Source: Bacteroidaceae bacterium (GTDB taxonomy: Bacteria > Bacteroidota > Bacteroidia > Bacteroidales > Bacteroidaceae). From it: DNA of 48,106 nucleotides. Positions 7,418 through 48,106 of this stretch are shown piece by piece (the first letter of the stretch is position 1; each line of letters opens with the position of its first letter). The notes under the pieces are model-generated. The model did not search any database. It saw only the letters and a list, made by a program, of their open reading frames with translations, and was not told the DNA's origin. The stretch spans positions 1 to 48,106 of the forward strand of contig JAKSLJ010000027.1 of assembly GCA_024401275.1 (NCBI GenBank), in the 5' to 3' direction. The translations under genes and the position numbers were made by a program.

Positions 7418-7489
7418 TGTAGGGCGAGGATTTCCGAGCCGTTTGCGGGTGTAAAACCTGAATCGCGGCTCGGAAATCCTCGCCCTACA
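7418..7489. repeat. 72-bp dispersed palindrome, copy 1
   Basis: Two perfectly complementary 24-base arms (7418-7441 and 7466-7489) enclose a 24-base loop. The arm begins TGTAGGGCGAGGATTTCC and ends GAGCCG. The same arms occur at 41686-41758 and 46031-46101 with unrelated loops. This copy ends 18 bases before the queH start, in its probable leader. It resembles REP or MITE-like elements; no transposase is present. Confidence 0.9.
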
Positions 7490-36717: not shown

Positions 36718-37548
36718 TTATTTGGCATTATTTTTATACCAATTTTTGAATTTGCTATCTATTTTATTTGCAATTTCAAAAATATTGCTTGAAAATGCAG
36801 CCGAAGCCTTGTTCATTTTTCTTCCAATTTCTGATTCATAGAAATTAATAATTAAATTAAGCTCGTCTTCGGAAACATTGTTGACCATGGAATTAGCAAG
36901 AAATCCGCTATAATTGTTTTTCATTATGTCAAAAAGACCATTGAAGAATTGCATTATCTGATTATACTGCTCCTCGTCCTGTATCTGACTGCCAAAATAG
37001 CTGGTAATGCTGTTTATGGCATTATCTATAAGCTCCTTGCTGTTTACAGCCTTTTCATATTTTTTTACCAGAACAAGATACTGCGGAGTAACCTCAGGAA
37101 GAAGTTTAGGCGAAGAAACTTCTTGATTCTGTATTATGTTTGCAGTAAGAAATTCCTTAACCTTTTCCTGCAATATGCTGGACGATGCATGTATATTGGC
37201 TAAGGCTTGCTGCAAGTTCTTATCGCTTAAGCTCTTTGTTATAGCCCTCACTTCGTCAATGTTCACTTCCGCGCTATACACTTCGGCATAAATATGCTTT
37301 ATATCCTCCATATATTGCGTGTCCATATATTTGCTTACTATTGATTCATAGTCAACAACGACGCTATCAGAGTCTGATTCATTCAGATCTGTGATGAACA
37401 TCTGCTTCATTTCGTCTTTGTTCAAATTCTCAATATTGTAAACTTCAAGCATTTCTCCAATAGCATCAATATATTCCTGTGACTGCGCAAACAAATTGAT
37501 TGTGCCAGCCATTATAAATATAACTATAGAAAGGATTAACTTTTTCAT
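36718..37548 (-). CDS. Exported DUF2059-like protein
   Basis: The 276-residue product begins with a signal peptide (MKKLILSIVIFIMAGTINLFA) and is otherwise helical, acidic and rich in Asn and Ser. The C-terminal EDELNLIINFYESEIGRKMN resembles the DUF2059 signature, and a weaker similar helix pair lies in the first half, so it may be a duplicated domain. No function is known for such proteins. It is probably co-transcribed with the downstream DUF4369 lipoprotein, 37 bases away. Confidence 0.62.
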   Translation of the reverse strand: MKKLILSIVIFIMAGTINLFAQSQEYIDAIGEMLEVYNIENLNKDEMKQMFITDLNESDSDSVVVDYESIVSKYMDTQYMEDIKHIYAEVYSAEVNIDEVRAITKSLSDKNLQQALANIHASSSILQEKVKEFLTANIIQNQEVSSPKLLPEVTPQYLVLVKKYEKAVNSKELIDNAINSITSYFGSQIQDEEQYNQIMQFFNGLFDIMKNNYSGFLANSMVNNVSEDELNLIINFYESEIGRKMNKASAAFSSNIFEIANKIDSKFKNWYKNNAK

Positions 37549-37590
37549 AATCGTTTAAATGTATTATTATTGAATATTATTCGTTATTAA

Positions 37591-37627
37591 AAAGCAAAAA
37601 AGCAATCCCGCTTTTAGCGAAATTGCT
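37591..37627 (-). terminator. Terminator after tRNA-Leu
   Basis: On the minus strand GCAATTTCGCT pairs with AGCGGGATTGC and is followed by a T run, about 35 bases after the tRNA 3' end. Confidence 0.75.
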
Positions 37628-37660
37628 CTTTAGGCTGGCTGTTTCGCCACCTCAAGGTAG

Positions 37661-37746
37661 TGCCGCGAGCGGGACTCGAACCCGCACGACCGTTTCGGGT
37701 CAAGGGATTTTAAGTCCCTCGTGTCTACCAATTCCACCATTGCGGC
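37661..37746 (-). tRNA. tRNA-Leu(TAA)
   Basis: An 86-base tRNA on the minus strand begins GCCGCAATGGTGGAATTGG. The anticodon stem GGGA/TCCC encloses CTTAAAA, giving TAA (Leu). A long variable arm (CTTGACCCGAAACGGTCG region), T arm GCGGG-TTCGAGT-CCCGC and discriminator A follow. One acceptor pair is mismatched. CCA is not encoded. Confidence 0.95.
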
Positions 37747-37833
37747 GTACCATTGATTTCGGCTGCAAAGGTAATAAAAATAAATGTATTAGAAAGAGAA
37801 AACCAAAGTTTTTTGCCTTTTTACAGCCAAAAA

Positions 37834-37865
37834 TTTGTGTGTTTTAAGTAAAATTACTAAATTTG
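37834..37865 (+). promoter_or_regulatory. Promoter for the alpha-galactosidase gene
   Basis: TTTG (37834-37837), 20 bases, then TAAATTTG (37858-37865): a full match to the Bacteroidetes consensus. It leaves a leader of under 20 bases. Confidence 0.8.
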
Positions 37866-37888
37866 CCCAATAAAACCTTAAAACAAAA

Positions 37889-39121
37889 ATGATGAAAAAG
37901 CTTTTTTTAACTACCTTAGTCATGCTCAGCATGGGCATTGCCGCAAACGCCCAAAAATGGGAAAGCGTGGCTGATACTCCACAAATGGGATGGAGTTCAT
38001 GGAACAAATTCCAAGGAAACATCAACGAACAGCTCATAATGGGCATAGCCGACGCCATAGTGGAGTCAGGACTTAAAGATGCCGGATATGAGTACATCAA
38101 CATCGACGACTGCTGGCATGGCAAGCGCGACGCCGACGGATTCATACAGCCCGACGAGAAGAAATTTCCTCATGGCATGAAGTACCTCTCTGACTATATC
38201 CATTCCAAGGGACTTAAACTCGGTATCTACAGCGACTGCGGTCGCGGAACATGTGCCGGAATGCCAGGCAGCTTTGGCCATGAATACCAAGATGCCCTCC
38301 AGTATGCACGCTGGGGCATAGACTATCTGAAGGAAGACTGGTGCAATACCGATAACATAAATCCTGTAGGAGCCTATCAGCTCATGAGCGATGCATTGCG
38401 CGAGGCAGGTCGTCCAATCTTCCTCAGCATGTGCGAGTGGGGCAGCAACAAGCCTTGGACATGGGCAAGAGAAATAGGTCATAGCTGGCGCATAGGACCA
38501 GACATCTGGTGCGACTTTGACTCAACAAAGGTCTTCGATGCTGGTTACACTCAAGTAGGCGTTATGCAGTGCATTCGTCTCAACGAACCGCTGCGCGCCT
38601 ATGCAGGACCAGGTCATTGGAACGATCCTGATATGCTGGAAGTTGGCAACGGAATGGCGGTAAATGAAGACCGCGCTCACTTCGCCATGTGGTGTATGAT
38701 GGCATCACCACTTATTCTCGGCAACGATATCCGCAACATGAGCGACGAGACAAAGTCTATTCTGCTCAATGGCGAGATGATAGCCGTTAATCAGGACAAG
38801 CTCGGCGTACAGGCACTTCGCCACACCACAGAGCAAGGATTGGAGTTCTGGTTCAAGCCACTTGCCGATGGCGACTGGGCATTCACCATTCTCAATCCAA
38901 CACGAGAGCCTATAACCTACGAACTCAACTGGCAGCACTTCAACCTTACCGACAATGAAGTATCAAAGCGCAGCACACAGTTCGACACAGTAGTTTATAC
39001 AGTGCGCGACCTTTGGCAGCATAAACCAGCCGGAAAGACCACACTCAAGGATAAGACAGATCGCAAACTGACAGTTCCTGCAAGAGATGTCCTCTCTTTC
39101 CGTCTCACACCGAAAAAGTAG
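37889..39121 (+). CDS. GH27 alpha-galactosidase
   Basis: The 410-residue enzyme has a signal peptide (LFLTTLVMLSMGIAANAQ) and a GH27 barrel: PQMGWSSWNKF, YEYINIDDCWH, KLGIYSDCGRGTC, the nucleophile in YLKEDWC (Asp150), the likely acid/base in SWRIGPDIW (Asp205), and GHWNDPDMLEVG. A beta-sandwich domain closes the protein. GH27 enzymes remove terminal alpha-1,6-galactose from raffinose-type sugars or galactomannan, by a retaining mechanism; some family members act on arabinopyranose or GalNAc, so the exact substrate is not certain. It has its own strong promoter and terminator, so it is a single-gene unit. No SusCD pair lies beside it. Confidence 0.93.
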   Translation: MMKKLFLTTLVMLSMGIAANAQKWESVADTPQMGWSSWNKFQGNINEQLIMGIADAIVESGLKDAGYEYINIDDCWHGKRDADGFIQPDEKKFPHGMKYLSDYIHSKGLKLGIYSDCGRGTCAGMPGSFGHEYQDALQYARWGIDYLKEDWCNTDNINPVGAYQLMSDALREAGRPIFLSMCEWGSNKPWTWAREIGHSWRIGPDIWCDFDSTKVFDAGYTQVGVMQCIRLNEPLRAYAGPGHWNDPDMLEVGNGMAVNEDRAHFAMWCMMASPLILGNDIRNMSDETKSILLNGEMIAVNQDKLGVQALRHTTEQGLEFWFKPLADGDWAFTILNPTREPITYELNWQHFNLTDNEVSKRSTQFDTVVYTVRDLWQHKPAGKTTLKDKTDRKLTVPARDVLSFRLTPKK

Positions 39122-39152
39122 AAAGCTTTTTTACTAACCGCACAGCAAAAAT

Positions 39153-39195
39153 TCCCACGATTTCCAATAACAGGAAGTCGTGGGAGCTTGTTTTT
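39153..39195 (+). terminator. Terminator after the alpha-galactosidase gene
   Basis: CCCACGATTTCC (39154-39165) pairs with GGAAGTCGTGGG (39173-39184), one G-U pair, loop AATAACA, followed by GCTTGTTTTT. Confidence 0.85.
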
Positions 39196-39226
39196 ATAAA
39201 TAATATATTTTTACTGTAAATGTGCA

Positions 39227-39237
39227 GAATATTATTT
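39227..39237. promoter_or_regulatory. Operator-like site 1 before the PLP enzyme gene
   Basis: GAATATTATTT, in the context TGTGCAGAATATTATTTTG. It differs by one base from the perfect palindrome GAATATTATTC found before the Lrp-type regulator. It starts 93 bases before the -7 box. Confidence 0.55.
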
Positions 39238-39267
39238 TGTGCATTCTGCTACATTGGGCGATTTGCA

Positions 39268-39278
39268 GAATATTTTTC
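39268..39278. promoter_or_regulatory. Operator-like site 2 before the PLP enzyme gene
   Basis: GAATATTTTTC in the context TTGCAGAATATTTTTCCGAA, 41 bases after site 1 and starting 52 bases before the -7 box. The same distance (52) is seen at the regulator gene. Confidence 0.55.
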
Positions 39279-39319
39279 CGAATGTAAGCAAAGAGAGCGA
39301 ATATACCAGATAAAACCAT

Positions 39320-39327
39320 TACTTTTG
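39320..39327 (+). promoter_or_regulatory. -7 box of the sulfur operon
   Basis: TACTTTTG matches TAnnTTTG, 20 bases before the ATG of the first sulfur gene. No -33 TTTG is visible, as expected for a promoter needing an activator. The regulator gene has the identical box. Confidence 0.6.
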
Positions 39328-39347
39328 CAGAAAATTTTAAGAATACA

Positions 39348-40526
39348 ATGCAAAAGCAGACCCAAGCCATATACACAAACTTCGAACTTGATGACCCTCA
39401 CGGTGCGCTCTCAATGCCCGTGTATCATTCAGCGGCATTTGAGTTCAACTCGGCTGCTGATATGGAGGCTGCGTTTACGGGCAAGATGCACAAGGCGAGC
39501 TATTCGCGAGTGGTAAACCCTACCGTAACGTTTCTTGAAGACAAAGTGACGGAACTGACTGGCGCTGAGGCGACATACGCCTTTAACTCAGGTATGGCTG
39601 CCATTCACAACGCCCTCGTAACATTTGCCGAAAGCGGAAAGAACATCGTAACGTCAAAGCACCTTTTCGGAAACACATTCTCACTTATAGGCGGCACGCT
39701 TAGGCGATTCGGAATCAAGGCGAAGTTCGTTGATCTCACTAATATAGATAAGGTACGCGAGGCGGTTAATGATGACACTTGTTGCATCTTTGCCGAGATA
39801 ATAACCAATCCGCAGATGGAGGTTGCCGACTTCCGCGCCCTTGCTGAAGTTGCTCACGAACACAATATTCCGCTCATTGCCGATACTACAATAATCCCAT
39901 TCACACAGTTTAGTGCAAAAGACTTGGGCATTGACATTGAGGTAGTTAGTAGCACGAAATACATCAGTGGCGGAGCGACATCGCTCGGCGGTCTGATGAT
40001 AAACTACGGTAGGTTTGACTTCGTTGACAAGCGTGTCCGCATGGAACTTCTCTACAACCTCGGTGCTATTATGACTCCTCACGCAGCCTATATGCAGACG
40101 CTCGGATTGGAAACCTTGGAAGCACGCTATAAGATGCAAGCGGCAAATGCCCTTGTCGTAGCGAAAGCCTTGCAGACGGTAGAAGGTATAGCGAGCGTGA
40201 ACTATGTGGGACTTGAGGACAATCCTTACCACGAGCTTGCAAAGAGTCAGTTTGGCGAAACAGCTGGTGCAATGCTCACATTCGATCTTGCATCGCGCGA
40301 AGATTGCTGGAGACTGATAGACAATGTGAAGGTCATTCACCGCGCCACGAATCTCTTTGACAATCGCTCGCTGATTATCCACCCTGCCACTACGATATTC
40401 GGCAACTTCCCACCGGCAGTTCGCAGGTCTATGCAGGTGAATGAGACTACCATCCGACTCAGCGTAGGACTTGAGCACCCGGAAGATATTATTAATGATA
40501 TTGTGCAAGCAATTAAGATCCCCTAA
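39348..40526 (+). CDS. Cys/Met metabolism PLP enzyme (MetY/MetB-like)
   Basis: The 392-residue enzyme belongs to the fold-type I Cys/Met metabolism family. The PLP lysine is Lys204 in VVSSTKYISGG; YSRVVNPT, ELTGAEATYAFNSGMAAI and the C-terminal RSLIIHPATTIFGNF are family blocks. Members make or break C-S bonds on O-acylhomoserine or cysteine (O-acetylhomoserine sulfhydrylase, cystathionine synthase or lyase). Because the next genes encode a ThiS-like carrier, an E1 and a JAMM protease, I infer an O-acylhomoserine sulfhydrylase that takes sulfur from a protein thiocarboxylate, as MetY does with HcyS in Wolinella. Sequence alone cannot exclude cystathionine chemistry. A pair of operator-like sites precedes it. 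Confidence 0.87.
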   Translation: MQKQTQAIYTNFELDDPHGALSMPVYHSAAFEFNSAADMEAAFTGKMHKASYSRVVNPTVTFLEDKVTELTGAEATYAFNSGMAAIHNALVTFAESGKNIVTSKHLFGNTFSLIGGTLRRFGIKAKFVDLTNIDKVREAVNDDTCCIFAEIITNPQMEVADFRALAEVAHEHNIPLIADTTIIPFTQFSAKDLGIDIEVVSSTKYISGGATSLGGLMINYGRFDFVDKRVRMELLYNLGAIMTPHAAYMQTLGLETLEARYKMQAANALVVAKALQTVEGIASVNYVGLEDNPYHELAKSQFGETAGAMLTFDLASREDCWRLIDNVKVIHRATNLFDNRSLIIHPATTIFGNFPPAVRRSMQVNETTIRLSVGLEHPEDIINDIVQAIKIP

Positions 40527-40545
40527 CCCCCCAAAGGGGAACTTT
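40518..40545. repeat. GC-rich palindrome at the end of the PLP enzyme gene
   Basis: GATCCCCTAACCCCCCAAAGGGGAAC is a member of the GC-rich palindrome family. It covers the stop codon and may supply the last codons (KIP) of the PLP enzyme. Confidence 0.6.
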
Positions 40546-40586
40546 TAATAGTTTTGCAGGTATATTCCAAAAACCAAAAACCAAAT

Positions 40587-40802
40587 ATGAAAATAACAGT
40601 AAACGACGAACAGCAGGAGGTACGCGAGGGCTTAAGCATCAGCGACCTTATCAAGGAAAACGATGTGGCTCAGCCAGAAATGGTTTCCGTGCAACTCAAC
40701 GAGGAATTCGTTGACCGTGATGATTTTGACGCTACCATTCTCAAGGATGGTGATGTAGTGGATTTTCTCTATTTCATGGGAGGCGGTACCCTAACTTATT
40801 AA
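40587..40802 (+). CDS. ThiS/MoaD-like sulfur carrier with masked Gly-Gly
   Basis: The 71-residue protein has a ubiquitin-like ThiS fold pattern (MKITVNDEQQEVREGLSISD, ILKDGDVVDFLYFM) and ends FMGGGTLTY. Sulfur carriers must end in free Gly-Gly to be adenylated and thiocarboxylated; here four residues (TLTY) follow the glycines at 65-67. In the Wolinella HcyS and similar systems a JAMM protease removes such tails, and a JAMM gene lies four genes downstream. I chose ATG 40587; a TTG at 40554 would add 11 residues. It is the likely sulfur donor for the PLP enzyme just upstream. Confidence 0.87.
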   Translation: MKITVNDEQQEVREGLSISDLIKENDVAQPEMVSVQLNEEFVDRDDFDATILKDGDVVDFLYFMGGGTLTY

Positions 40803-40851
40803 TGCGAAATTCGCAATAAATCGGCAAATCAGTAAATCGGTAAATGTAACT

Positions 40852-41661
40852 ATGTTTGATTTCACAGAAGAAGAACTGAACCGCTACAGCCGTCATATCC
40901 TGTTGCAGGATGTAGGCGTGGAAGGTCAGGAAAAGATAAGACAAGGCAAGGTACTGGTGATTGGCGCTGGCGGACTTGGAGCACCAGTGGCTATGTACCT
41001 GGCAGCTGCCGGCGTTGGCACTATCGGCATCGTTGATGGCGATGTTGTTGACCTCAGCAATTTGCAGCGACAGATCATCCACACCACTCCCGACATCGGC
41101 AAGGCAAAGGTGATTTCTGCCAAGGAGACCATAGAAGCAATAAATCCGAATGTGAAAGTCAATGCCATTCAGGAATTTCTTTGGGCAGACAACATCCGCG
41201 AGATTATCCGCGACTACGACTTCGTGATTGACGGAACGGACAATTTCCCAGTGAAGTTTCTCATCAACGATGCGTGTGTGATGGAAGGAAAGCCTTTCAG
41301 CCACGGTGGCATTCTCAGGTTTGAAGGTCAGACTTTCACTCACCTTCCAGGCACAGCTTGTTATCGCTGTATGTTCAAGACTCCACCACCAGCAGGTGCT
41401 GTGCCAACTTGTTCACAAGCAGGAGTGCTTGGTGCAATAGCCGGAATGCTGGGAACAATCCAGGCAGCAGAGGCATTGAAATATCTGACAGGCGTGGGCG
41501 AATTGCTCACCAACAAGCTTCTCACATTCAATGCCAAGACGATGGACTTCAGGAAAATCAATGTGAAGAAGACTGCACGTTGTCCACTGTGTGGTGAGAA
41601 TCCGACAGTTACGGAACTCATTGACTACGAACAGGCTGCGTGCGATTTGAAGAACCATTAG
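40852..41661 (+). CDS. ThiF/MoeB-like E1 adenylyltransferase
   Basis: The 269-residue protein activates the C-terminus of a ubiquitin-like sulfur carrier as an acyl-adenylate. It shows RYSRHILLQDVG, the nucleotide loop GAGGLG (38-43), DLSNLQRQ with the ATP arginine, DGTDNFPVKFLIND, the possible catalytic Cys187 in PTCSQAGVLG, and zinc ligands in CYRC (170, 173) and CPLC (244, 247). There is no rhodanese domain, so sulfur must come from another protein; TusA, DsrE and the cysteine desulfurase encoded downstream are candidates. It starts 49 bases after the carrier gene and probably acts on that carrier. Confidence 0.92.
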   Translation: MFDFTEEELNRYSRHILLQDVGVEGQEKIRQGKVLVIGAGGLGAPVAMYLAAAGVGTIGIVDGDVVDLSNLQRQIIHTTPDIGKAKVISAKETIEAINPNVKVNAIQEFLWADNIREIIRDYDFVIDGTDNFPVKFLINDACVMEGKPFSHGGILRFEGQTFTHLPGTACYRCMFKTPPPAGAVPTCSQAGVLGAIAGMLGTIQAAEALKYLTGVGELLTNKLLTFNAKTMDFRKINVKKTARCPLCGENPTVTELIDYEQAACDLKNH

Positions 41662-41685
41662 GATGTACCAATTATATTTTTTCTT

Positions 41686-41758
41686 TGTAGGGCGAGGATT
41701 TCCGAGCCGTTTTATCAACAGAACCACTTAAATGCGGCTCGGAAATCCTCGCCCTACA
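41686..41758. repeat. 72-bp dispersed palindrome, copy 2
   Basis: Perfect 24-base arms (41686-41709 and 41735-41758), identical to copy 1, around an unrelated 25-base loop. It lies inside the sulfur operon between the E1 and DsrE-like genes and ends 14 bases before the latter's ATG, so it would be in the transcript. Confidence 0.9.
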
Positions 41759-41772
41759 TATAACTCTTTATT

Positions 41773-42249
41773 ATGGAAAAGAAGAAACTTTCATTGATAG
41801 CCTTTTCTGGCGATTACGACAAATTGACGGCAGTGTTCACACTGGCAACAGGTGCTGCTGCCGTAGGATATGAAGTAAACATCTTCTTCACATTCTGGGG
41901 ACTTGACGCCATCAAGCAGAAGAAGGGCAGAGCGTTCATCGGCTCAAACTGGCTGACAAAGCTTTTCGGCTTTATGATGGGCGGTCTCAGCGTAACGCCT
42001 AACAGCCGTTTCAACTTCTGCGGCATCGGTCCGAAGATATTCCGCTACTTGATGAAGAAGAACAACGTAGCTACTCTCGAAGAACTCGTAGAGGCAGCCG
42101 CAGCTCTCGGAGTCAACATGTATGCCTGCGAAATGGCAATGCATGTGCTCGGCATCCAGAAGTTAGACTTCATCCACGAGGTGAAGGATGTGCTCGGCGT
42201 AGCCACATTCCTCAACATCTCCGAAGGCGGCAGAACGATGTTCATTTAA
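41773..42249 (+). CDS. DsrE-like sulfur relay protein
   Basis: The 158-residue product has the DsrE/DsrF-like fold pattern: LSLIAFSGDYDKLTAVFTLA, AAVGYEVNIFFTFWGL and a C-terminal MYACEMAMHVLGI in which Cys119 sits where the persulfide cysteine of the larger DsrE-type proteins is expected. Cys83 is a second cysteine. There is a hydrophobic stretch around 60-75 (LTKLFGFMMGGLS), seen in the DsrE2-type subgroup. Such proteins pass persulfide sulfur, often to or from TusA, whose gene follows 131 bases later. It is cytoplasmic or loosely membrane-bound. Confidence 0.85.
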   Translation: MEKKKLSLIAFSGDYDKLTAVFTLATGAAAVGYEVNIFFTFWGLDAIKQKKGRAFIGSNWLTKLFGFMMGGLSVTPNSRFNFCGIGPKIFRYLMKKNNVATLEELVEAAAALGVNMYACEMAMHVLGIQKLDFIHEVKDVLGVATFLNISEGGRTMFI

Positions 42250-42250
42250 G

Positions 42251-42376
42251 ACCCCTCCCAACCTCCCCACAAGGGAGGTGTCCATAATCACATTAATATA
42301 AACCCACATTTAAAATTCCCCTTACAAAATGCCCGGTTTGGGTTCTCCCCCTGTGGGGGAGTTAGAGGGGGTCTCT
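42251..42376. repeat. Pair of GC-rich palindromes between dsrE- and tusA-like genes
   Basis: Two elements of the CCCCCTCTAACTCCCCC family lie at 42251-42283 and, in inverse orientation, 42343-42376, with about 60 AT-rich bases between. The outer ends (GACCCC and GGGGTC) could also pair with each other. The second ends just before the tusA-like start codon. Confidence 0.75.
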
Positions 42377-42380
42377 ACTC

Positions 42381-42602
42381 ATGACCCACACATTAGACAT
42401 TACAAAAGAACATTGCCCAATGACCTTTGTGAAGACAAAGCTTAAGTTGGCTCAGATAGCAGAAGGCGACATCCTTGAGGTGCTGCTTGTAGAAGGCGAA
42501 CCGCTCGAAAATGTGCCTCGTTCGGCTAAGGAGCAAGGCTACAATGTGCTAAGCGTAGAACATGTGGAAGGAAATGTCCACAAGGTAACAATCCAGAAAT
42601 AA
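42381..42602 (+). CDS. TusA-like sulfur transfer protein
   Basis: The 73-residue protein has the TusA/SirA signature: LDITKEHCPMTFVKTKLKLA with Cys12 as the persulfide carrier in the CPxxxxK context, then EGDILEVLLVEGEP and a C-terminal strand HKVTIQK. TusA-family proteins accept sulfur from a cysteine desulfurase and pass it on. This context (desulfurase, DsrE-like, E1 and carrier) is consistent with that role, but the partner is inferred. The ATG follows a GC-rich palindrome; the JAMM gene starts six bases after the stop. Confidence 0.92.
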   Translation: MTHTLDITKEHCPMTFVKTKLKLAQIAEGDILEVLLVEGEPLENVPRSAKEQGYNVLSVEHVEGNVHKVTIQK

Positions 42603-42608
42603 ACAATC

Positions 42609-43010
42609 ATGGCAATAACAATAACTCGACAAGCATACGAGTCAATCCTTGAACAGGCAAGACGCGAAGCTCCGTTGGAGGCGTGCGGATATCTACTGGG
42701 AACGGACAAAGAGAACGCTACAGAGAACTTTGCGATGACAAACATCGATCACTCCGAAGAGCACTTCTCGCTCGACCCGAAGGAGCAGTTTGCAGCCATC
42801 AAATACGCTCGCAAAAACGGTTTGAAGGTGGTAGGCAACTGGCACAGTCACCCAGCCTCTCCGTCGCGTCCCTCACAGGAAGACATCCGACTGGCTTACG
42901 ACCCGAACATTCTCTACTTCATCCTTTCCCTTGCTGCGGAAGACCCCGTCCTGAATGCTTTCCGCATACAGCAAGGCAATGTGGAGAAATTAGAAGTAAT
43001 CATAAACTAA
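42609..43010 (+). CDS. JAMM/Mov34 metalloprotease (HcyD/Mec+-like)
   Basis: The 133-residue protein has a complete JAMM zinc site: Glu24 (LEACGYLLG), His79 and His81 in NWHSHP, Ser89 and Asp92 in RPSQEDI. Related small bacterial enzymes cut after the Gly-Gly of sulfur carriers: Mec+ frees cysteine from CysO, and HcyD acts on HcyS. Here it could both trim TLTY from the carrier and release the amino acid product made on it. It is cytoplasmic and lies 25 bases before the encapsulin gene. Family certain; substrate inferred from context. Confidence 0.92.
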   Translation: MAITITRQAYESILEQARREAPLEACGYLLGTDKENATENFAMTNIDHSEEHFSLDPKEQFAAIKYARKNGLKVVGNWHSHPASPSRPSQEDIRLAYDPNILYFILSLAAEDPVLNAFRIQQGNVEKLEVIIN

Positions 43011-43035
43011 AAAACGTAAATTGTAAATTAAAATT

Positions 43036-44457
43036 ATGTCAGACAATAACATCCAGCGTAGTATCACTACATCAACGGCTCGCAAACTTGCGAATACCAC
43101 CAAGACTGCCCCACAGATGGGCAGCATCACTCCTCGTCTTCTCCTCAAGCTTCTTCCTTGGACTCAGGTGGAAAGCGGTACTTACCGCGTAAACCGCACA
43201 AAAGTGGAACTGAAGAAGGCTGAGAGAATAGAAATCCAGTATATCAACGGTCAGCCAACATTTACAACAAAGAACCTCAGGAAAATTCCTTTGTTCCAAA
43301 ATCTTGACCAGAAGATTGTGAAGGATCTTGCCTATAGTTTCGTCTCTTATGAGCGTAAGCGTGGAGAATTTCTCGTAGAGCAAGGCAAGGACAAGCAGCG
43401 TTTCTTCATTGTAGCTTCCGGTCAGGCTGAGGTCATCAGCACTGGCGACCATAACGAGGAACTCTCCATTGCACTTCTCGGCGGCGGCGAATATTTCGGT
43501 GAGACAGACCTTCTTTCTGATGCTGACAGCACAGTTAGTGTTCGTGCCGTAACAGACTCTGTGTTCCTCGCTCTTGAAACTCCTGTACTTGAGGATATCC
43601 TGAAGCATAACCCTGACTTCCAGACGCAGTTTGAGAATGCCGTCAACGAGTCGCTTCGCCTGAAAGCTACAGTAAATGAACATGGCGAGAAGCACATCGA
43701 CCTTGTGAGCGGTCATGAGGAAGACAACATCATCCCAGAGACTTACATCGACTATGATGAAGAGCCAACGGAATATAGCCTCAATACTCTCCAGACTGTC
43801 GTACGCGTTCACACTCGCGTTAGCGATCTCTACAACTCGCCTTACAACCAGCTTGAGCAGCAGCTTCGTCTTTCTATTGAGAGCATCAAGGAGCGTCAGG
43901 AGTGGGAACTTATCAACAACTCCAAGTTCGGTCTTCTTGCTCAAACAGCTCCAGGTTATAAGATCAGTACTCGTGCCGGCGTGCCAACACCAGACGACCT
44001 TGACGAACTCATCTCACTCGTTTGGAAGCAACCTGCATTCTTCATCGCACACCCTCGTGCCATCGCTGCCTTCGAGCGCGAATGTACTTGGCGCGGTGTT
44101 CCACCAGTAGCCATCGATATGTTCGGTACAAAGGTCATCACTTGGCGTGGCGTGCCTATCATTCCTTGCGACAAGGTGGAGATCAAGGGCAAATATCTCA
44201 CAAACCGTGGCACAGGAACAACAGAAATCATTCTCGTCCGCACTGGTGAGAAGGAGCAGGGTGTCATCGGTTTGCATCAGGCTGGTATTCCTGGCGAGAT
44301 AGCACCAAGCCTCTCAGCACGACTCATGGGACTCGACCAGTATGGCGTAGCAAGCTATTTGCTCACAAAGTATTTCTCACTCGCATCTCTCACTGACGAT
44401 GCCATCGCAGTTCTTGAGAACGTTGAAGTGGGTCATTACCATAACTACGATAAATAA
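43036..44457 (+). CDS. Family 2B encapsulin shell protein
   Basis: The 473-residue protein matches family 2 encapsulins with an inserted cyclic-nucleotide-binding-like domain (2B). Residues 1-75 form the N-arm (SITPRLLLKLLPWTQVESGT), about 84-210 the cNMP-like domain (IPLFQNLDQKIVKDL, FFIVASGQAEVIS, GEYFGETDLLSDADS), and about 245-473 the HK97-type shell fold (AGVPTPDDLDELISLVWKQP, FFIAHPRAIAAFEREC, GVPPVAIDMFGTKV). Family 2 shells enclose cysteine desulfurases; one such gene starts five bases later. The phosphate cassette has Ser where the cAMP-binding arginine normally is, so ligand binding is uncertain. It should self-assemble into a cytoplasmic nanocompartment. Confidence 0.9.
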   Translation: MSDNNIQRSITTSTARKLANTTKTAPQMGSITPRLLLKLLPWTQVESGTYRVNRTKVELKKAERIEIQYINGQPTFTTKNLRKIPLFQNLDQKIVKDLAYSFVSYERKRGEFLVEQGKDKQRFFIVASGQAEVISTGDHNEELSIALLGGGEYFGETDLLSDADSTVSVRAVTDSVFLALETPVLEDILKHNPDFQTQFENAVNESLRLKATVNEHGEKHIDLVSGHEEDNIIPETYIDYDEEPTEYSLNTLQTVVRVHTRVSDLYNSPYNQLEQQLRLSIESIKERQEWELINNSKFGLLAQTAPGYKISTRAGVPTPDDLDELISLVWKQPAFFIAHPRAIAAFERECTWRGVPPVAIDMFGTKVITWRGVPIIPCDKVEIKGKYLTNRGTGTTEIILVRTGEKEQGVIGLHQAGIPGEIAPSLSARLMGLDQYGVASYLLTKYFSLASLTDDAIAVLENVEVGHYHNYDK

Positions 44458-44462
44458 TCAAA

Positions 44463-45977
44463 ATGGCTTTTTTCAACGAAATAGATAATTTCCAGCCGAG
44501 CATACCTGTTCAAACGCGTTATGGCAATGCTCCCGCAGGTCTGACTCTCCCCGACAGCGACCAATGTCTGTTTCGCAATGTCATAGAGAAGTATTTCTCC
44601 GACGACTTGCAGCAAGCCACCGTTCCCGAAGTGTCAACTTCGGGCTACAGCGACGACGCCCACTACACCTTGCCTACTGACAACGCCTGGGAAGGTCCTG
44701 CCTTCGGCATAGACATTCCAGAGCGCGAACTTGTCAAGGATTTGCACTACGAGGAAGTTGACACCATCAACTCTACGGAAATCCGCAATCAGTTTCCAGT
44801 GCTTCAGCAGAAAGTCAATGGTCACGACCTGATATGGATGGACAACGGAGCGACAACCCAGAAGCCGCTTCGTGTCATTGATGGCTTATCCGAATTCTAC
44901 AAGCACGACTACTCCAACATCCATCGTGGAGCACACACATTGGCAGCTCGCAGCACTGACCAGTATGAAGGTGCTCGTGAGAAGGTGGCTCGCTTCATCA
45001 ACGCTCCTGCCAAGGAGAACATTCTCTTTGTACGCGGAACAACTGAGGGCATCAACCTTATTGCGCAGACCTTTGGCAGGAAGTTCCTTGAGAGGGGTGA
45101 CAACGTCATCGTTTCAACACTCGACCATCACGCAAATATCGTGCCTTGGCAGCAGATATGCAAAGAGCGTGGAGCAGAGCTTCGCGCCATACCTTGCGAC
45201 AAGAACGGCGACCTCATCCTTTCCGAACTTGAACGTCTTATCACGCCTCGTACAAAGTTCGTCAGCGTGGGTCATGTAAACAACACTTTCGGAACCATAA
45301 ACGATGTGGAGTCAATCATCCGCACGGCTCACAGTCGCGGAGTGCCTGTCCTTCTGGACGGAGCGCAGAGCGTAGCCCACACTCGCATCGATGTGCAGCG
45401 TCTTGACTGCGACTTCTTCGTCTTCTCCGGTCACAAGATCTACGGACCTTCCGGCATAGGCGCTGTCTATGGCAAGAAGGATTGGCTTGAGCAACTTCCA
45501 CCATGGCAGGGCGGCGGCAATATGATAAAGGATGTTACCATCGAGCATACGGAGTTTAATGCACCGCCTATGCGTTTCGAGGCTGGCACACCGAACATTG
45601 CAGATGCAATAGGTCTCGGCTATGCACTGGATTTCGTCAGCAGCATAGGCATTGAACGCATAGAGGCTCACGAGCACGACCTTACCGAATATGCTCGCCA
45701 GCAGATATCTCGCATACCAGGCATTACGATCATCGGCAATCCGAAGAACCGTGTCAGTGTAATCTCCCTCGATATTCCTGGCATACCGGCACCAGAGGTC
45801 GGACAGTTGCTCGACAAGGAAGGCATCGCCGTGCGTGCCGGTCATCATTGCGCCCAGCCAGCCCTCCGCTCTTTGGGCTATGAGATGTCCGTTCGTCCAA
45901 CTTTCGCCGTCTATAACACTCGCGAAGAGGTTGACCGCCTAGTCATCGCATTGCAGAAGATTGTCGGCAACGCATAA
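44463..45977 (+). CDS. Cysteine desulfurase, encapsulin cargo type
   Basis: The 504-residue SufS/CsdA-type enzyme converts cysteine to alanine and an enzyme-bound persulfide. Residues about 105-504 are the enzyme: FPVLQQKVNGHDLIWMDNGA, DHHANIVPW, PLP lysine Lys325 in SGHKIYGPSG, and active Cys463 in RAGHHCAQPA. The first 105 residues (MAFFNEIDNFQPSIPVQTRY and on) are an extension rich in Pro, Ser and acidic residues, missing in housekeeping SufS; in family 2 encapsulin systems such extensions drive loading into the shell. It starts five bases after the encapsulin stop, so stoichiometry may be coupled. No other SUF genes are nearby. Confidence 0.93.
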   Translation: MAFFNEIDNFQPSIPVQTRYGNAPAGLTLPDSDQCLFRNVIEKYFSDDLQQATVPEVSTSGYSDDAHYTLPTDNAWEGPAFGIDIPERELVKDLHYEEVDTINSTEIRNQFPVLQQKVNGHDLIWMDNGATTQKPLRVIDGLSEFYKHDYSNIHRGAHTLAARSTDQYEGAREKVARFINAPAKENILFVRGTTEGINLIAQTFGRKFLERGDNVIVSTLDHHANIVPWQQICKERGAELRAIPCDKNGDLILSELERLITPRTKFVSVGHVNNTFGTINDVESIIRTAHSRGVPVLLDGAQSVAHTRIDVQRLDCDFFVFSGHKIYGPSGIGAVYGKKDWLEQLPPWQGGGNMIKDVTIEHTEFNAPPMRFEAGTPNIADAIGLGYALDFVSSIGIERIEAHEHDLTEYARQQISRIPGITIIGNPKNRVSVISLDIPGIPAPEVGQLLDKEGIAVRAGHHCAQPALRSLGYEMSVRPTFAVYNTREEVDRLVIALQKIVGNA

Positions 45978-45984
45978 ATATGGA

Positions 45985-46006
45985 GGTGCGGTGCCCTCAC
46001 CGCACC
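45985..46006. repeat. Short perfect hairpin after the desulfurase gene
   Basis: GGTGCGGTG and CACCGCACC pair perfectly around CCCT, eight bases after the stop codon. There is no T run, so it is more like a REP element or mRNA 3'-end stabiliser than a classic terminator. Confidence 0.7.
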
Positions 46007-46030
46007 ATCAGCGAACTTGGCTGATACCTT

Positions 46031-46101
46031 TGTAGGGCGAGGATTTCCGAGCTGCGAATCGGTATTATTGTGCGAAACGGCTCGGAAATCCTCGCCCTAC
46101 A
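46031..46101. repeat. 72-bp dispersed palindrome, copy 3
   Basis: Arms 46031-46054 and 46078-46101 match copies 1 and 2, with one base changed in the left arm (GAGCTG). The loop is unrelated. A T-rich stretch (46106-46115) follows, so this copy might terminate the sulfur operon transcript. Confidence 0.88.
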
Positions 46102-46118
46102 TTTGGTCTTTTTTTGCA

Positions 46119-46129
46119 GAATATTATTC
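46119..46129. promoter_or_regulatory. Operator-like site 1 before the Lrp-type gene
   Basis: GAATATTATTC is a perfect 11-base palindrome in the context TTGCAGAATATTATTCCGA. It starts 94 bases before the -7 box, against 93 at the sulfur operon. Confidence 0.6.
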
Positions 46130-46160
46130 CGACAAAGCGTCTTTAGTTTTACTCCACACA

Positions 46161-46171
46161 GAATAATTTTC
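46161..46171. promoter_or_regulatory. Operator-like site 2 before the Lrp-type gene
   Basis: GAATAATTTTC in the context CACAGAATAATTTTCCGAA, 42 bases after site 1 and starting 52 bases before the -7 box. Confidence 0.55.
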
Positions 46172-46212
46172 CGAAGTTCACGGAGAATGCATAATGTTTC
46201 GTGAAAAGTTTG

Positions 46213-46220
46213 TACTTTTG
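46213..46220 (+). promoter_or_regulatory. -7 box of the Lrp-type gene
   Basis: TACTTTTG, identical to the box of the sulfur operon, 30 bases before the ATG. No -33 TTTG is visible. Confidence 0.6.
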
Positions 46221-46250
46221 CAAAAGACTATTCTATAAAATATGTAATCT

Positions 46251-46727
46251 ATGGAAAAAATTGATGTCACAGATATAAGACTATTGCGCGAACTGCAAAA
46301 AAACGCTAAACTCACCACAAAGGAGCTTGGCGACCGTATAAACCTTAGCGCATCGCCTACCTTTGAACGTCAGAAGCGATTGGAGCGTGAGGGCTACATC
46401 ACCCGCTATGTAGCGAAGGTTGACCATCGTAAGTTGGGCAACAACCTCGTCGTGTTCTGCAATATTCGTCTGAAACATCATAGCAAGAAGCTTGGTGAGG
46501 AGTTTGTCGCTGCCATGCAGAAGATTCAGGAGGTTACCGAATGCTATAACACCTCTGGCGATTTCGACTATCTCATAAAGATCTACCTTCGCAACATGGA
46601 GCATTACCACGACTTCGTCTATAACACCCTCGGCGTGATAGACTGTATTGGAAGCCTCCACAGCGTCTTCGTCATAGCAGAGGAGAAGACAGAGGCAGGC
46701 ATCCCTGTGGCACTTGATGCAAAGTAA
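46251..46727 (+). CDS. Lrp/AsnC family regulator
   Basis: The 158-residue protein has an N-terminal winged helix-turn-helix (IRLLRELQKNAKLTTKELGD, LSASPTFERQKRLEREGYIT) and a C-terminal RAM ligand-sensing domain (VTECYNTSGDFDYLIKIYLR). Lrp/AsnC proteins form octamers that wrap DNA and respond to amino acids. Given the shared paired sites before its own promoter and before the sulfur operon, it probably regulates both, perhaps in response to methionine, cysteine or homocysteine; the effector is a guess. It is a single-gene unit with its own terminator-like hairpin. Confidence 0.93.
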   Translation: MEKIDVTDIRLLRELQKNAKLTTKELGDRINLSASPTFERQKRLEREGYITRYVAKVDHRKLGNNLVVFCNIRLKHHSKKLGEEFVAAMQKIQEVTECYNTSGDFDYLIKIYLRNMEHYHDFVYNTLGVIDCIGSLHSVFVIAEEKTEAGIPVALDAK

Positions 46728-46765
46728 AAACGCATTTGTATTCTTTTTAGCACACAACGACAACT

Positions 46766-46800
46766 CCCACGACTCCGAAATCTGAAGCCGTGGGATTTTA
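46766..46800 (+). terminator. Terminator-like hairpin after the Lrp-type gene
   Basis: CCCACG (46766-46771) pairs with CGTGGG (46789-46794), then ATTTTATATT. It resembles the terminator at 39153-39195. The T tract is short. Confidence 0.6.
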
Positions 46801-46953
46801 TATTGTAGGCCACACAGGGGACACACAGAATTTGCGATAGCCTTTCCATAATCAGAGTAGATCCTATTCTGTCTCTATTGTAAGTTCTTCGGGGAATGGT
46901 ACCAAGACATATATTCAAAGTCTAATGGTAACAATGAGTCAGAGAACCGTCCC

Positions 46954-47118
46954 TCAACTCATTCTTTGGATTTTCTCAAAGAAATAGATAGAATATTTCC
47001 ACATGTCCACAGCTACAGTTCTCCCTTTGGGGTCTGTTGCTCTTACTAGATTATTATACAAATCAGAGGTTAAGTCATCTGCTGTAATTGTGACACATTG
47101 ATCTTGATCCTTTTTCAT
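46954..47118 (-). CDS. Small 54-residue protein, operon with GIY-YIG gene
   Basis: The ATG at 47118 overlaps the stop codon of the GIY-YIG gene as ATGA, strong evidence that this short frame is real and translationally coupled. The product starts MKKDQDQCVTITADDLTSDL and ends FFEKIQRMS. It contains RATDPKGRTVAVDMWKYSIY, with no recognised domain, signal peptide or membrane segment. It is too short for a family call. A partner or regulator of the GIY-YIG protein is possible but unproven. Confidence 0.65.
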   Translation of the reverse strand: MKKDQDQCVTITADDLTSDLYNNLVRATDPKGRTVAVDMWKYSIYFFEKIQRMS

Positions 47119-47630
47119 ATATCATCATTTAAATGATTTCTATTATTAAATATAGATGGTAACAAACCATGAAAACCGGTATTTTCTATGACCAAATCAT
47201 ACCACAAACAATATGATTTTGTCTGTTGTTTATTAGTCAAATTTCTCTCAACTTTATAGCCAAGACTTTGAAGTTCCGTTATTAACCCACTTTCTATGGT
47301 CAAAAGAAGTCTGTCAAAGCCATGAGGCTCATTTTCATATGTTGCTAAACTATGAGGTTCTATGATTCTTCCCAACCGTACATAAAATTCACCATTCTTA
47401 TGCAAAAAGGCTTTGTCTTTATTAATATGTTGCCTGAATCTTTCACGAAAACTTTGCCTAGTCTTTCCTATATAAACTGGAGTTTCATCAATTCGGTCTG
47501 AATAGAAAATACATCTCGATATGTAGTAAACTCCGCACTCATCTATAGAAGGATTATCCTCAAATTCGTCCCATTTTCGGGGATATGTCCAGTCTATCTT
47601 TATATGTCTGAGCCTATTATACCTTTTCAT
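47115..47630 (-). CDS. GIY-YIG nuclease-superfamily protein
   Basis: The 171-residue protein has a GIY-YIG-like core: ECGVYYISRCIF stands for the GIY strand, TPVYIGKTRQSFRERFRQHI for the YIG strand with the conserved Arg and following His. The domain spans about residues 30-125; the Glu that usually completes the site may be in TIESGLITELQSLGY. Such proteins range from homing and restriction nucleases to UvrC-like repair enzymes. The gene is AT-rich relative to its neighbours and sits next to a phage-like gene, suggesting recent acquisition. It heads a two-gene unit with the 54-residue protein. Confidence 0.8.
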   Translation of the reverse strand: MKRYNRLRHIKIDWTYPRKWDEFEDNPSIDECGVYYISRCIFYSDRIDETPVYIGKTRQSFRERFRQHINKDKAFLHKNGEFYVRLGRIIEPHSLATYENEPHGFDRLLLTIESGLITELQSLGYKVERNLTNKQQTKSYCLWYDLVIENTGFHGLLPSIFNNRNHLNDDI

Positions 47631-47647
47631 AATGATTGTTTGATTCG

Positions 47648-47655
47648 CAAAATTA
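47648..47655 (-). promoter_or_regulatory. -7 box of the GIY-YIG operon
   Basis: CAAAATTA on the plus strand reads TAATTTTG on the minus strand, 17 bases before the ATG. A TTTA 20 bases further up could be a weak -33 element. Confidence 0.6.
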
Positions 47656-47756
47656 CAAAAATATATTATAAACCATAAAATTTTCCAGATAATTCTGAAG
47701 TTTTGCCAACATTTTATGTCTTTCCTTCTTCATTTTGCTATGCCTACCTTTGCAAT

Positions 47757-48106
47757 ATGCAAAAGCAAATCACCGAACAACAAACAATAGCAGAACGTGA
47801 GAAATACGTTTCTGCTTTCAACGATACTATGATAAAGATATGGCAAGAGCAGATCACGCTCCTCGGTGTCATCGACACGGGGAGACTGCTGCACTCGCCA
47901 TTGTCCATCGGACTAAGCGCCGATGGACAGTTCTCACAGGTACAGCTGTCACAGGCGTTCCTTGAATATGGTCTTTGGCAAGACTATGGCACTGGTGGCG
48001 AAGTGCCGCGTGGGAACTCTGGTGACATAGGACGTGAAAAGAAACGTCAGCGACGTCCTTGGTTCTCTCGCAAGTACTATGCTTCCGTCATGAACATAAA
48101 GGACTT
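47757..48106 (+). CDS. Phage-like protein, 5' part
   Basis: An open frame starts at ATG 47757 (MQKQITEQQTIAEREKYVSA) and runs off the window after about 116 residues. The segment FLEYGLWQDYGTGGEVPRGN, then GREKKRQRRPWFSRKYYASV, recalls a family of structural (head-tail/neck type) proteins in Bacteroidales prophages; this is from memory and unverified. Its base composition is more GC-rich than the adjoining GIY-YIG gene. TACCTTTG at 47745-47752 is a -7 box so close to the ATG that the mRNA could be leaderless. A prophage or remnant may continue beyond the edge. Confidence 0.55.
   Translation, partial: MQKQITEQQTIAEREKYVSAFNDTMIKIWQEQITLLGVIDTGRLLHSPLSIGLSADGQFSQVQLSQAFLEYGLWQDYGTGGEVPRGNSGDIGREKKRQRRPWFSRKYYASVMNIKD

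Follow-up and report, generated by a model that had tools for sequence, protein, structure and literature searches.

A family 2B encapsulin and its neighbouring cysteine desulfurase are linked to a putative thiocarboxylate-dependent homocysteine pathway in a Bacteroidaceae genome

A set of eight genes in the genome of a Bacteroidaceae bacterium places a virus-like compartment, a family 2B encapsulin with an adjoining cysteine desulfurase, next to the apparent components of a pathway in which a ubiquitin-like carrier delivers sulfur as a thiocarboxylate. The set lies on contig JAKSLJ010000027.1 of assembly GCA_024401275.1 (3.2 Mb in 71 contigs, 91% complete), within a stretch of 48,106 nucleotides (positions 1 to 48,106, forward strand) that was analysed as a whole and is called the window here. 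On balance, and with moderate confidence, we favour the reading that carrier-borne homocysteine synthesis draws its sulfur from the encapsulin-borne cysteine desulfurase in place of sulfate reduction. Each half of this arrangement is known, and their combination looks new: a thiocarboxylate-dependent route to homocysteine whose proposed donor module is an encapsulin. The genes in question are as follows.

39348..40526, + strand: MetY-like pyridoxal 5'-phosphate enzyme, proposed carrier-thiocarboxylate-dependent homocysteine synthase (PF01053, 332 bits)
40584..40802, + strand: ThiS-like sulfur carrier ending FMGGG-TLTY (PF02597, 49 bits; TIGR01683, 65 bits)
40852..41661, + strand: E1-like carrier-adenylating enzyme without a rhodanese domain (PF00899, 278 bits, its sole Pfam match)
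41773..42249, + strand: DsrE2-like persulfide handler (PF13686, DrsE_2, 137 bits)
42381..42602, + strand: TusA-like sulfur relay (PF01206, 76 bits)
42609..43010, + strand: JAMM/Prok-JAB metalloprotease, proposed HcyD-like enzyme for carrier trimming and product release (PF14464, 89 bits)
43036..44457, + strand: family 2B encapsulin shell with an inserted cNMP-binding-type domain (NF041163, 567 bits; PF19307, 378 bits; PF00027, 59 bits)
44463..45977, + strand: SufS-type cysteine desulfurase with a 105-residue N-terminal extension, presumed cargo (PF00266, 478 bits; NF041166, 695 bits)
46251..46727, + strand: Lrp/AsnC regulator, probably outside the conserved unit (PF01037, PF13412)

A first-pass annotation made from the sequence alone had described nine rightward genes with these family names, and the map of open reading frames and the domain matches bear it out, all nine reading frames lying on the + strand at these coordinates. 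From MetY through the desulfurase the intergenic gaps measure 57, 49, 111, 131, 6, 25 and 5 bp in order, the largest being those between DsrE2 and TusA (131 bp) and between E1 and DsrE2 (111 bp); a gap of 273 bp separates the desulfurase from the Lrp gene.

One line of evidence for our reading is the conservation of this neighbourhood. Genome contigs were scanned with the shell protein, and the best 80 of 418 relatives were fetched; together with nine loci from congeners and L172, L174 and L186 they make 92 loci, or 88 after removal of four duplicates. Neighbours within 8 kb of the encapsulin were counted in the 51 of these 88 that have at least 5.5 kb on each side; all were selected via shell similarity and are not independent samples. 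The desulfurase, DsrE2 and TusA are near the encapsulin in 51/51 loci, the carrier trio of ThiS, E1 and JAMM in 48/51, and MetY in 41/51. Further neighbours are CysK (44/51), SAT and MalY-type genes (11/51 each), CysH (2/51), and CysN and CysD (1/51 each). The 41 loci with the full eight-gene set show five arrangements, with 16, 13, 5, 4 and 3 loci, with the carrier trio either preceding or following the shell genes or transcribed divergently from them, and another seven of the 51 show one of these five minus MetY. (With CysK and SAT disregarded, the arrangements number seven, of which five hold the full set; if the presence or absence of CysK and SAT is counted as well, they number 15.) The first-pass annotation had made its proposal depend on a neighbourhood shared by related genomes, and such a neighbourhood is found in 48 of the 51 loci. 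A chance neighbourhood was rejected given that the set is retained across five arrangements, and its persistence through rearrangement argues strongly that the genes function together.

The same association appears at the level of whole genomes. A shell gene is present in 96 of the 398 congeneric genomes surveyed. With an identity of at least 69% as our own threshold for an E1 ortholog, under which 114 of 136 matching genomes are kept and 22 fall out, shell and E1 occur together in 90 genomes, the shell alone in 6, E1 alone in 24 and neither in 278. The co-occurrence that the first-pass annotation had proposed to look for was found via the E1 ortholog, which is present in 90/96 genomes with an encapsulin vs 24/302 without one (Fisher p ~1e-58, uncorrected for relatedness). 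In the 90 genomes with both, the two genes are at most 8 kb apart in 79, farther apart on the same contig in 6 and on different contigs in 5. Of 100 genomes sampled at the outset, ten (the host included) passed the shell cut-off, all of the same genus. In a sample of 392 genomes across the phylum, 51 had a shell at E 1e-60; besides the host, these were 43 members of a single family (f58) in another class and 7 genomes whose shell is 2A-like. Twelve f58 loci from 11 genomes were read, and no DsrE2, TusA or JAMM was recognised in them. In four of the twelve (L158, L160, L162 and L163), shell and desulfurase adjoin a MetY-like gene and apparent thiG, thiH and thiF genes, as read from the sequence; among these four, ThiS was recognised in L158.

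Independent support comes from congeners that place the same carrier block beside another donor module, a sulfite reductase-TusA fusion of about 800 residues (PF01077, PF03460 and PF01206). The fusion occurs in 26/398 genomes: 13/24 with E1 only, 12/90 with encapsulin and E1, 0/6 with encapsulin only and 1/278 of the others. It was found within 8 kb of the encapsulin in none of the 51 well-flanked loci. Ten of the 26 genomes, with the fusion next to the E1 ortholog, were fetched (L173 and L177-L185; two are cut or different), and in L173, L177-L183 and L185 fusion proteins were seen beside the same E1/JAMM block. Eight of the ten come from genomes without an encapsulin; the other two, G616 and G804, have one, G616 carrying both modules about 46 kb apart and G804 both arrangements. 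The gene order in these loci is ThiS (recognised in 9/10)-E1-JAMM-fusion, followed by a Met8-like gene in nine, a tetrapyrrole methylase in four and CysN with CysH in eight. A MetY ortholog lies elsewhere in all seven of the fusion-locus genomes that the MetY survey covered. TusA accompanies the carrier block in both contexts, either fused to sulfite reductase or beside the encapsulin desulfurase. On an E1 tree with 107 rows, at least three changes are needed for the sulfite-reductase context and seven for the encapsulin context, and hence the contexts have been switched repeatedly. The proposal made from the sequence, that the compartment is the carrier's source of sulfur, therefore gains from the finding of one E1/JAMM block with either donor module, while its other elements, enclosure of the desulfurase and the direction of sulfur flow, keep the standing of inference. 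There is also a third context, in which the carrier trio lies by tetrapyrrole- or siroheme-type genes with no encapsulin nearby (L175, L195, L196 and L197); these loci form one E1 clade with L187.

The individual proteins of the carrier block fit a thiocarboxylate route. In every one of the 77 intact carriers, each from a distinct encapsulin locus, FMGGG is followed by a C-terminal tail of at least one residue (1-6 residues in 72), and the 20 carriers read from E1/JAMM loci near sulfite reductase or in other contexts all have a tail too, as expected for a pro-carrier trimmed by the JAMM protease. The closest solved chain to the carrier of the window is 2K5P (63 bits). Although the carrier scores over the cut-off of the thiS model TIGR01683, a thiamine ThiS/ThiF identity was rejected, the carrier being tailed and no thiG or thiH adjoining; in L158, by comparison, the ThiS is of thiamine type and has no tail, its last residues being FAGGG. 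The E1 motifs GAGGLG and VPTCSQAGV are present in 81/81 proteins, and the best solved chains for E1 are of MoeB/ThiF (187 bits). The JAMM metal motif H-S-H-x(7)-S-x-x-D is found in 75/76, with 2KKS as the closest solved chain (119 bits). An antiphage E1/JAB system was also considered and set aside, the PADLOC matches being domain-level only (up to 70 bits for E1 and 37 for JAMM). The TusA gene of the cluster is the sole one found in the assembly; its motif CPMTF, with the cysteine, is present in 85/85 proteins, and the form CPM-T/N-F is common to stand-alone TusA and 8/9 of the sulfite reductase fusions. In DsrE2 the cysteine motif ACEMAM is present in 84/86 and a second cysteine (FNFCG) in only 23/86; the protein matches PF13686 and stays below the equivalog model NF047629 (70 bits vs a cut-off of 210).

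The shell passes the family 2B model NF041163 (567 bits vs a cut-off of 400), carries its cNMP-binding-type domain (PF00027) at residues 108-192 and has 9BJE and 9BIX as closest solved chains. Cyclic nucleotides are reportedly not bound by the inserted domain of other 2B shells, according to the available part of the source (PMC12407261). A phage capsid identity was ruled out by the 2B model score and by the best matches to solved 2B shells. The only phage-record matches to the shell were two records titled 'Acinetobacter phage' (CAKLQH020000001.1 and CAKLQF020000001.1), which are annotated with an mmpI/sufS pair; 37 plasmid records matched at less than 60% identity. The desulfurase of the cluster has an N-terminal extension of 105 residues that a 411-aa SufS-type enzyme encoded elsewhere in the assembly lacks; in the alignment it is conserved mainly right before the core (GFGIGIPE...HYEEADT), and the motif RAGHHCAQ is present in 85/87 enzymes. 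The model of family 2A cargo, NF041166, gives 695 bits where its cut-off is 800, and covers residues 95-500 only. Of the cargo-type extension described in the first-pass annotation, the extension itself is thus real, and its cargo type is not captured by the family 2 cargo model. Enclosure of the desulfurase by the shell is presumed from the sequence and the adjoining genes.

The MetY of the cluster finds its best solved chain in 3RI6 (310 bits; the next scores 231), and the lysine motif SSTKY is present in 63/67 best matches, paralogs among them. The available part of PMC11568248 names 3RI6 as the Wolinella succinogenes enzyme, and that of PMC6271081 has the Wolinella MetY drawing sulfur from a protein thiocarboxylate. 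By similarity, the cluster MetY is closest to this thiocarboxylate-using enzyme and may share its substrate. Loci that have MetY 3' of the desulfurase (L036, L037, L038, L106 and L112) were seen to carry a MetY subtype longer by about 20 residues. As to the rest of the assembly, no strong PF01053 match was found in it beyond two MetY-type enzymes, and an HTS-family enzyme (441 bits) points to a supply of acylated homoserine, acetyl and succinyl forms not being distinguished. Sulfate-reduction genes, which stand beside the carrier block in congeners, are missing from the window cluster. NIR_SIR has no match in the 91% complete assembly, so that cysteine is a plausible sulfur donor in the host, as far as an incomplete genome can tell. 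No cysteine synthase (CysM or CysK) was found in the window cluster or in the assembly, whose three PALP proteins read from their sequences as two TrpB-type proteins and one ThrC.

Several known systems share parts of this set. The protein-thiocarboxylate methionine pathway of W. succinogenes, with HcyS, HcyF, HcyD and MetY, is said to have had its steps established by Krishnamoorthy and Begley in 2011. The cluster resembles it in its tailed ThiS-like carrier, E1 without rhodanese, JAMM protease and a MetY nearest 3RI6; unlike it, encapsulin, cysteine desulfurase, TusA and DsrE2 stand in place of the sulfate-reduction genes, and it is the fusion loci of congeners that resemble the sulfate-fed Wolinella pathway. 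In the mycobacterial CysO/CysM/Mec+ route, a carrier thiocarboxylate and a JAMM protease yield cysteine by way of a CysM-type synthase. In contrast, the window is without CysM or CysK, and the gene tested in a relative is of CysK type. Sulfur storage has reportedly been described for an Acinetobacter encapsulin. The Wolinella pathway is cited in the available parts of PMC5764234 and PMC6271081. Row 4e of Iyer et al. 2006 lists sulfur-metabolism operons with ThiS/MoaD, JAB, E1 and SirA/TusA (PMC1779556); in the part available, these operons share with ours ThiS/MoaD, JAB, a rhodanese-less E1, SirA/TusA and O-acetylhomoserine sulfhydrylase, and differ in having sulfate/sulfite assimilation genes, encapsulin and desulfurase not being named there. 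A survey of family 2B encapsulins counts 199 operons with a cysteine desulfurase, with SAT and rhodanese as accessory genes, and, as far as the available part goes, it shares with our cluster the shell type and an adjoining SufS-type enzyme with an unannotated N-terminus; 'sulfur carrier' and 'homocysteine' are absent from its main text (PMC8346489). In Synechococcus SrpI the desulfurase is encapsulated, but that shell is of family 2A, and 'methionine' and 'ThiF' are absent from the main text (PMC8049743). The first-pass annotation knew of no described system combining both halves; likewise, the open-licence literature searched yielded no description of an encapsulin combined with a sulfur-carrier or thiocarboxylate methionine route.

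In the scheme that we propose, the extended desulfurase would ride inside, or on, the family 2B shell and take the sulfur of cysteine, and its persulfide would pass to TusA, perhaps with DsrE2, and on to the C-terminal glycine of the carrier. Before loading, the JAMM protease would remove the carrier's short tail and E1 would adenylate the exposed glycine. The carrier thiocarboxylate would then attack O-acetylhomoserine on the MetY-like enzyme, the likely acceptor in preference to CysK, and JAMM would release the presumed product, homocysteine, for a net cysteine-to-homocysteine transsulfuration without cystathionine. The shell module would occupy the place that sulfate reduction has in Wolinella and, as the sulfite reductase-TusA fusion, in some congeners. 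CysK may supply the cysteine of the desulfurase, as might be the case in CysK loci without the JAMM block, or act as an alternative acceptor of the carrier. The shell itself may serve to store the sulfur, to protect it or to shield the desulfurase from other acceptors. We infer the hand-over from desulfurase to TusA to carrier from gene linkage and the alternative donor modules, and the cage probably feeds the carrier route because the set is kept together in several orders in many relatives. A more ambitious version, tentative and in our estimate somewhat short of an even chance, makes the virus-like compartment a dedicated donor: cysteine sulfur, perhaps held in the shell as S0, would flow through TusA/DsrE2 and the ubiquitin-like carrier to homocysteine, as a third, cystathionine-free transsulfuration and a plug-in exchangeable with sulfate reduction, in a unit spreading among herbivore-gut Bacteroidales.

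The prominence of CysK among the neighbours raises a cysteine route instead, in which CysK would draw on the carrier thiocarboxylate, in the manner of mycobacterial CysO, and re-assimilate S0 of the shell. CysK within 8 kb in 44/51 loci, SAT in 11/51 and eight loci with CysK and no MetY nearby speak for it. However, CysK is missing from the window, and the three PALP matches of the assembly read as other enzymes; the one CysK tested scores over the cut-off of cysteine synthase A (TIGR01139) and is not CysM; turning cysteine into cysteine would serve no purpose unless sulfur were stored; and CysK also occurs with encapsulin and desulfurase but without the JAMM block in other groups (e.g. L158, L161 and L170), so CysK may just supply cysteine. 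We regard this route as unlikely. Another unlikely account is a sulfur island without direct transfer, in which the encapsulin stores or detoxifies sulfur alone, the carrier uses free sulfide and a shared sulfur response clusters the genes. Gut habitats are presumably rich in sulfide, which would suit it, and so would the separation of the encapsulin and carrier modules in 3/51 loci and their distance of more than 8 kb on the same contig in 6/90 genomes; against it stand the retention of the set across five arrangements and the presence of TusA with the carrier block both in the sulfite reductase fusion and beside the desulfurase. It is very improbable that carrier, E1 and JAMM serve protein modification of the SAMP/Urm1 kind or tRNA thiolation: E1 and JAMM do match the SAMP E1 and desampylase models, at 323 and 81 bits respectively, but both lie below the curated cut-offs (450 and 130), and the trio keeps company with MetY or sulfate-assimilation genes.

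Several observations weigh against the reading of the shell module as donor for MetY-based homocysteine synthesis. Three of the 51 encapsulin loci lack the carrier trio nearby and have only DsrE2, TusA, encapsulin and desulfurase, and 24/114 E1-bearing genomes are without a detected encapsulin; in at least two of the latter (G526 and G536) the contig runs out next to DsrE2 or TusA, so that the assembly may have lost the shell there. The two donor modules are not strictly exclusive, as 12 genomes with encapsulin and E1 also have the fusion, and MetY adjoins the fusion in only 1/10 loci (L177). Ten of the 51 loci have no MetY within 8 kb, eight of these with CysK. Eight MetY-less loci were searched genome-wide: an ortholog lies elsewhere for L060, L062, L063, L065, L071 and L114, and the genomes of L058 and L064 have only relatives of about 33% identity. 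For the remaining two, a survey at E 1e-100, which undercounts, found an ortholog on a different contig of G616 (L172) and none in G052 (L035). Among 20 encapsulin genomes searched for a MetY ortholog, 14 have one, 4 have only relatives of 30-34% identity and 2 have nothing (E 1e-40). MetY orthologs also occur in 34/198 congeners without an E1 ortholog, compared with 42/81 with one (an undercount). Hence MetY is associated with, and not tied to, the carrier, and the enzyme may not always need it. At E 1e-100, MetY was found in 33/66 encapsulin genomes and 43/213 others, in a subset (handles up to G710) inferred from handle order; this survey undercounts, since the subtype longer by about 20 residues is split into two HMMER domains, and G022, G031, G050 and G051 were scored MetY-negative yet have MetY beside the encapsulin. 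The assembly also holds a second, conventional MetY, an O-acetylhomoserine sulfhydrylase (L121, 1489-2757; 8SF5 scores 442 bits, 3RI6 only 230), so that methionine auxotrophy upon deletion is not a safe prediction. Moreover, the desulfurase extension is poorly conserved and unmatched by the known cargo model, and no riboswitch reached the gathering score upstream in 16 loci or within positions 37000-48106 of the window.

Transcription and regulation of the cluster offer further observations. A 24-bp perfect or near-perfect inverted repeat, a hairpin resembling repetitive extragenic palindromic elements, has three copies in the window: at 7418-7489, at 41686-41758 inside the cluster between E1 and DsrE2 (perfect) and at 46031-46101 between desulfurase and Lrp. 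Because it sits in the E1/DsrE2 gap, a single transcript of the cluster is not assured. A promoter scan with a sigma-70-type model only returned 17 sites vs 10.1 in shuffled sequences. Just 5' of MetY, TACTTTTGC at 39320-39328 resembles the Bacteroidetes -7 promoter element. The sole RNA match at the Rfam gathering score within 37000-48106 is a tRNA gene (37661-37746, minus strand, 55.9 bits). The Lrp gene, counted as a cluster member in the first-pass annotation, probably lies outside the conserved unit: a homolog is within 8 kb of the encapsulin in 1/51 loci at 60% identity and 7/51 at 40%, and Lrp was rejected as the cluster regulator on these grounds. An Lrp-family gene 49-52% identical to that of the window lies on the opposite strand 5' of MetY in L094, L095, L099, L102, L104 and L108. 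A LuxR-type response-regulator gene recurs in 30/51 encapsulin loci and in the sulfite-reductase loci L173, L177, L178 and L182.

As for its spread, many of the relative loci carry titles of samples from ruminant or other herbivore guts, and the nearest titled relative of the shell (94% identity) comes from a Bacteroidaceae metagenome-assembled genome from horse feces, for which reason we take the host assembly, too, for a metagenome-assembled genome of gut Bacteroidales. The window shell is 84-85% identical to shells of loci titled Salinivirgaceae or Paludibacteraceae (among L055-L073), and mostly 74-78% to those of its own genus. Across loci, the identities of E1, TusA and JAMM track that of the shell (rho 0.77-0.80), those of ThiS, DsrE2 and MetY less so (0.25-0.51). 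With the shell closer to other families and E1, TusA and JAMM following it, comparison of the sequences suggests that the set was transferred between families.

The acceptor for the sulfur freed by encapsulated desulfurases has been left open, according to the available part of PMC8049743. At the loci described here, the shell is accompanied by a complete, compact set of candidate acceptors together with a product enzyme, and the same acceptors lie by sulfate-reduction genes in some close relatives that have no shell; the acceptor question thereby becomes testable with eight genes. If our reading is true, gut Bacteroidales would get methionine sulfur from cysteine without cystathionine, and sulfur-donor modules would be swapped around a constant ubiquitin-like carrier core.

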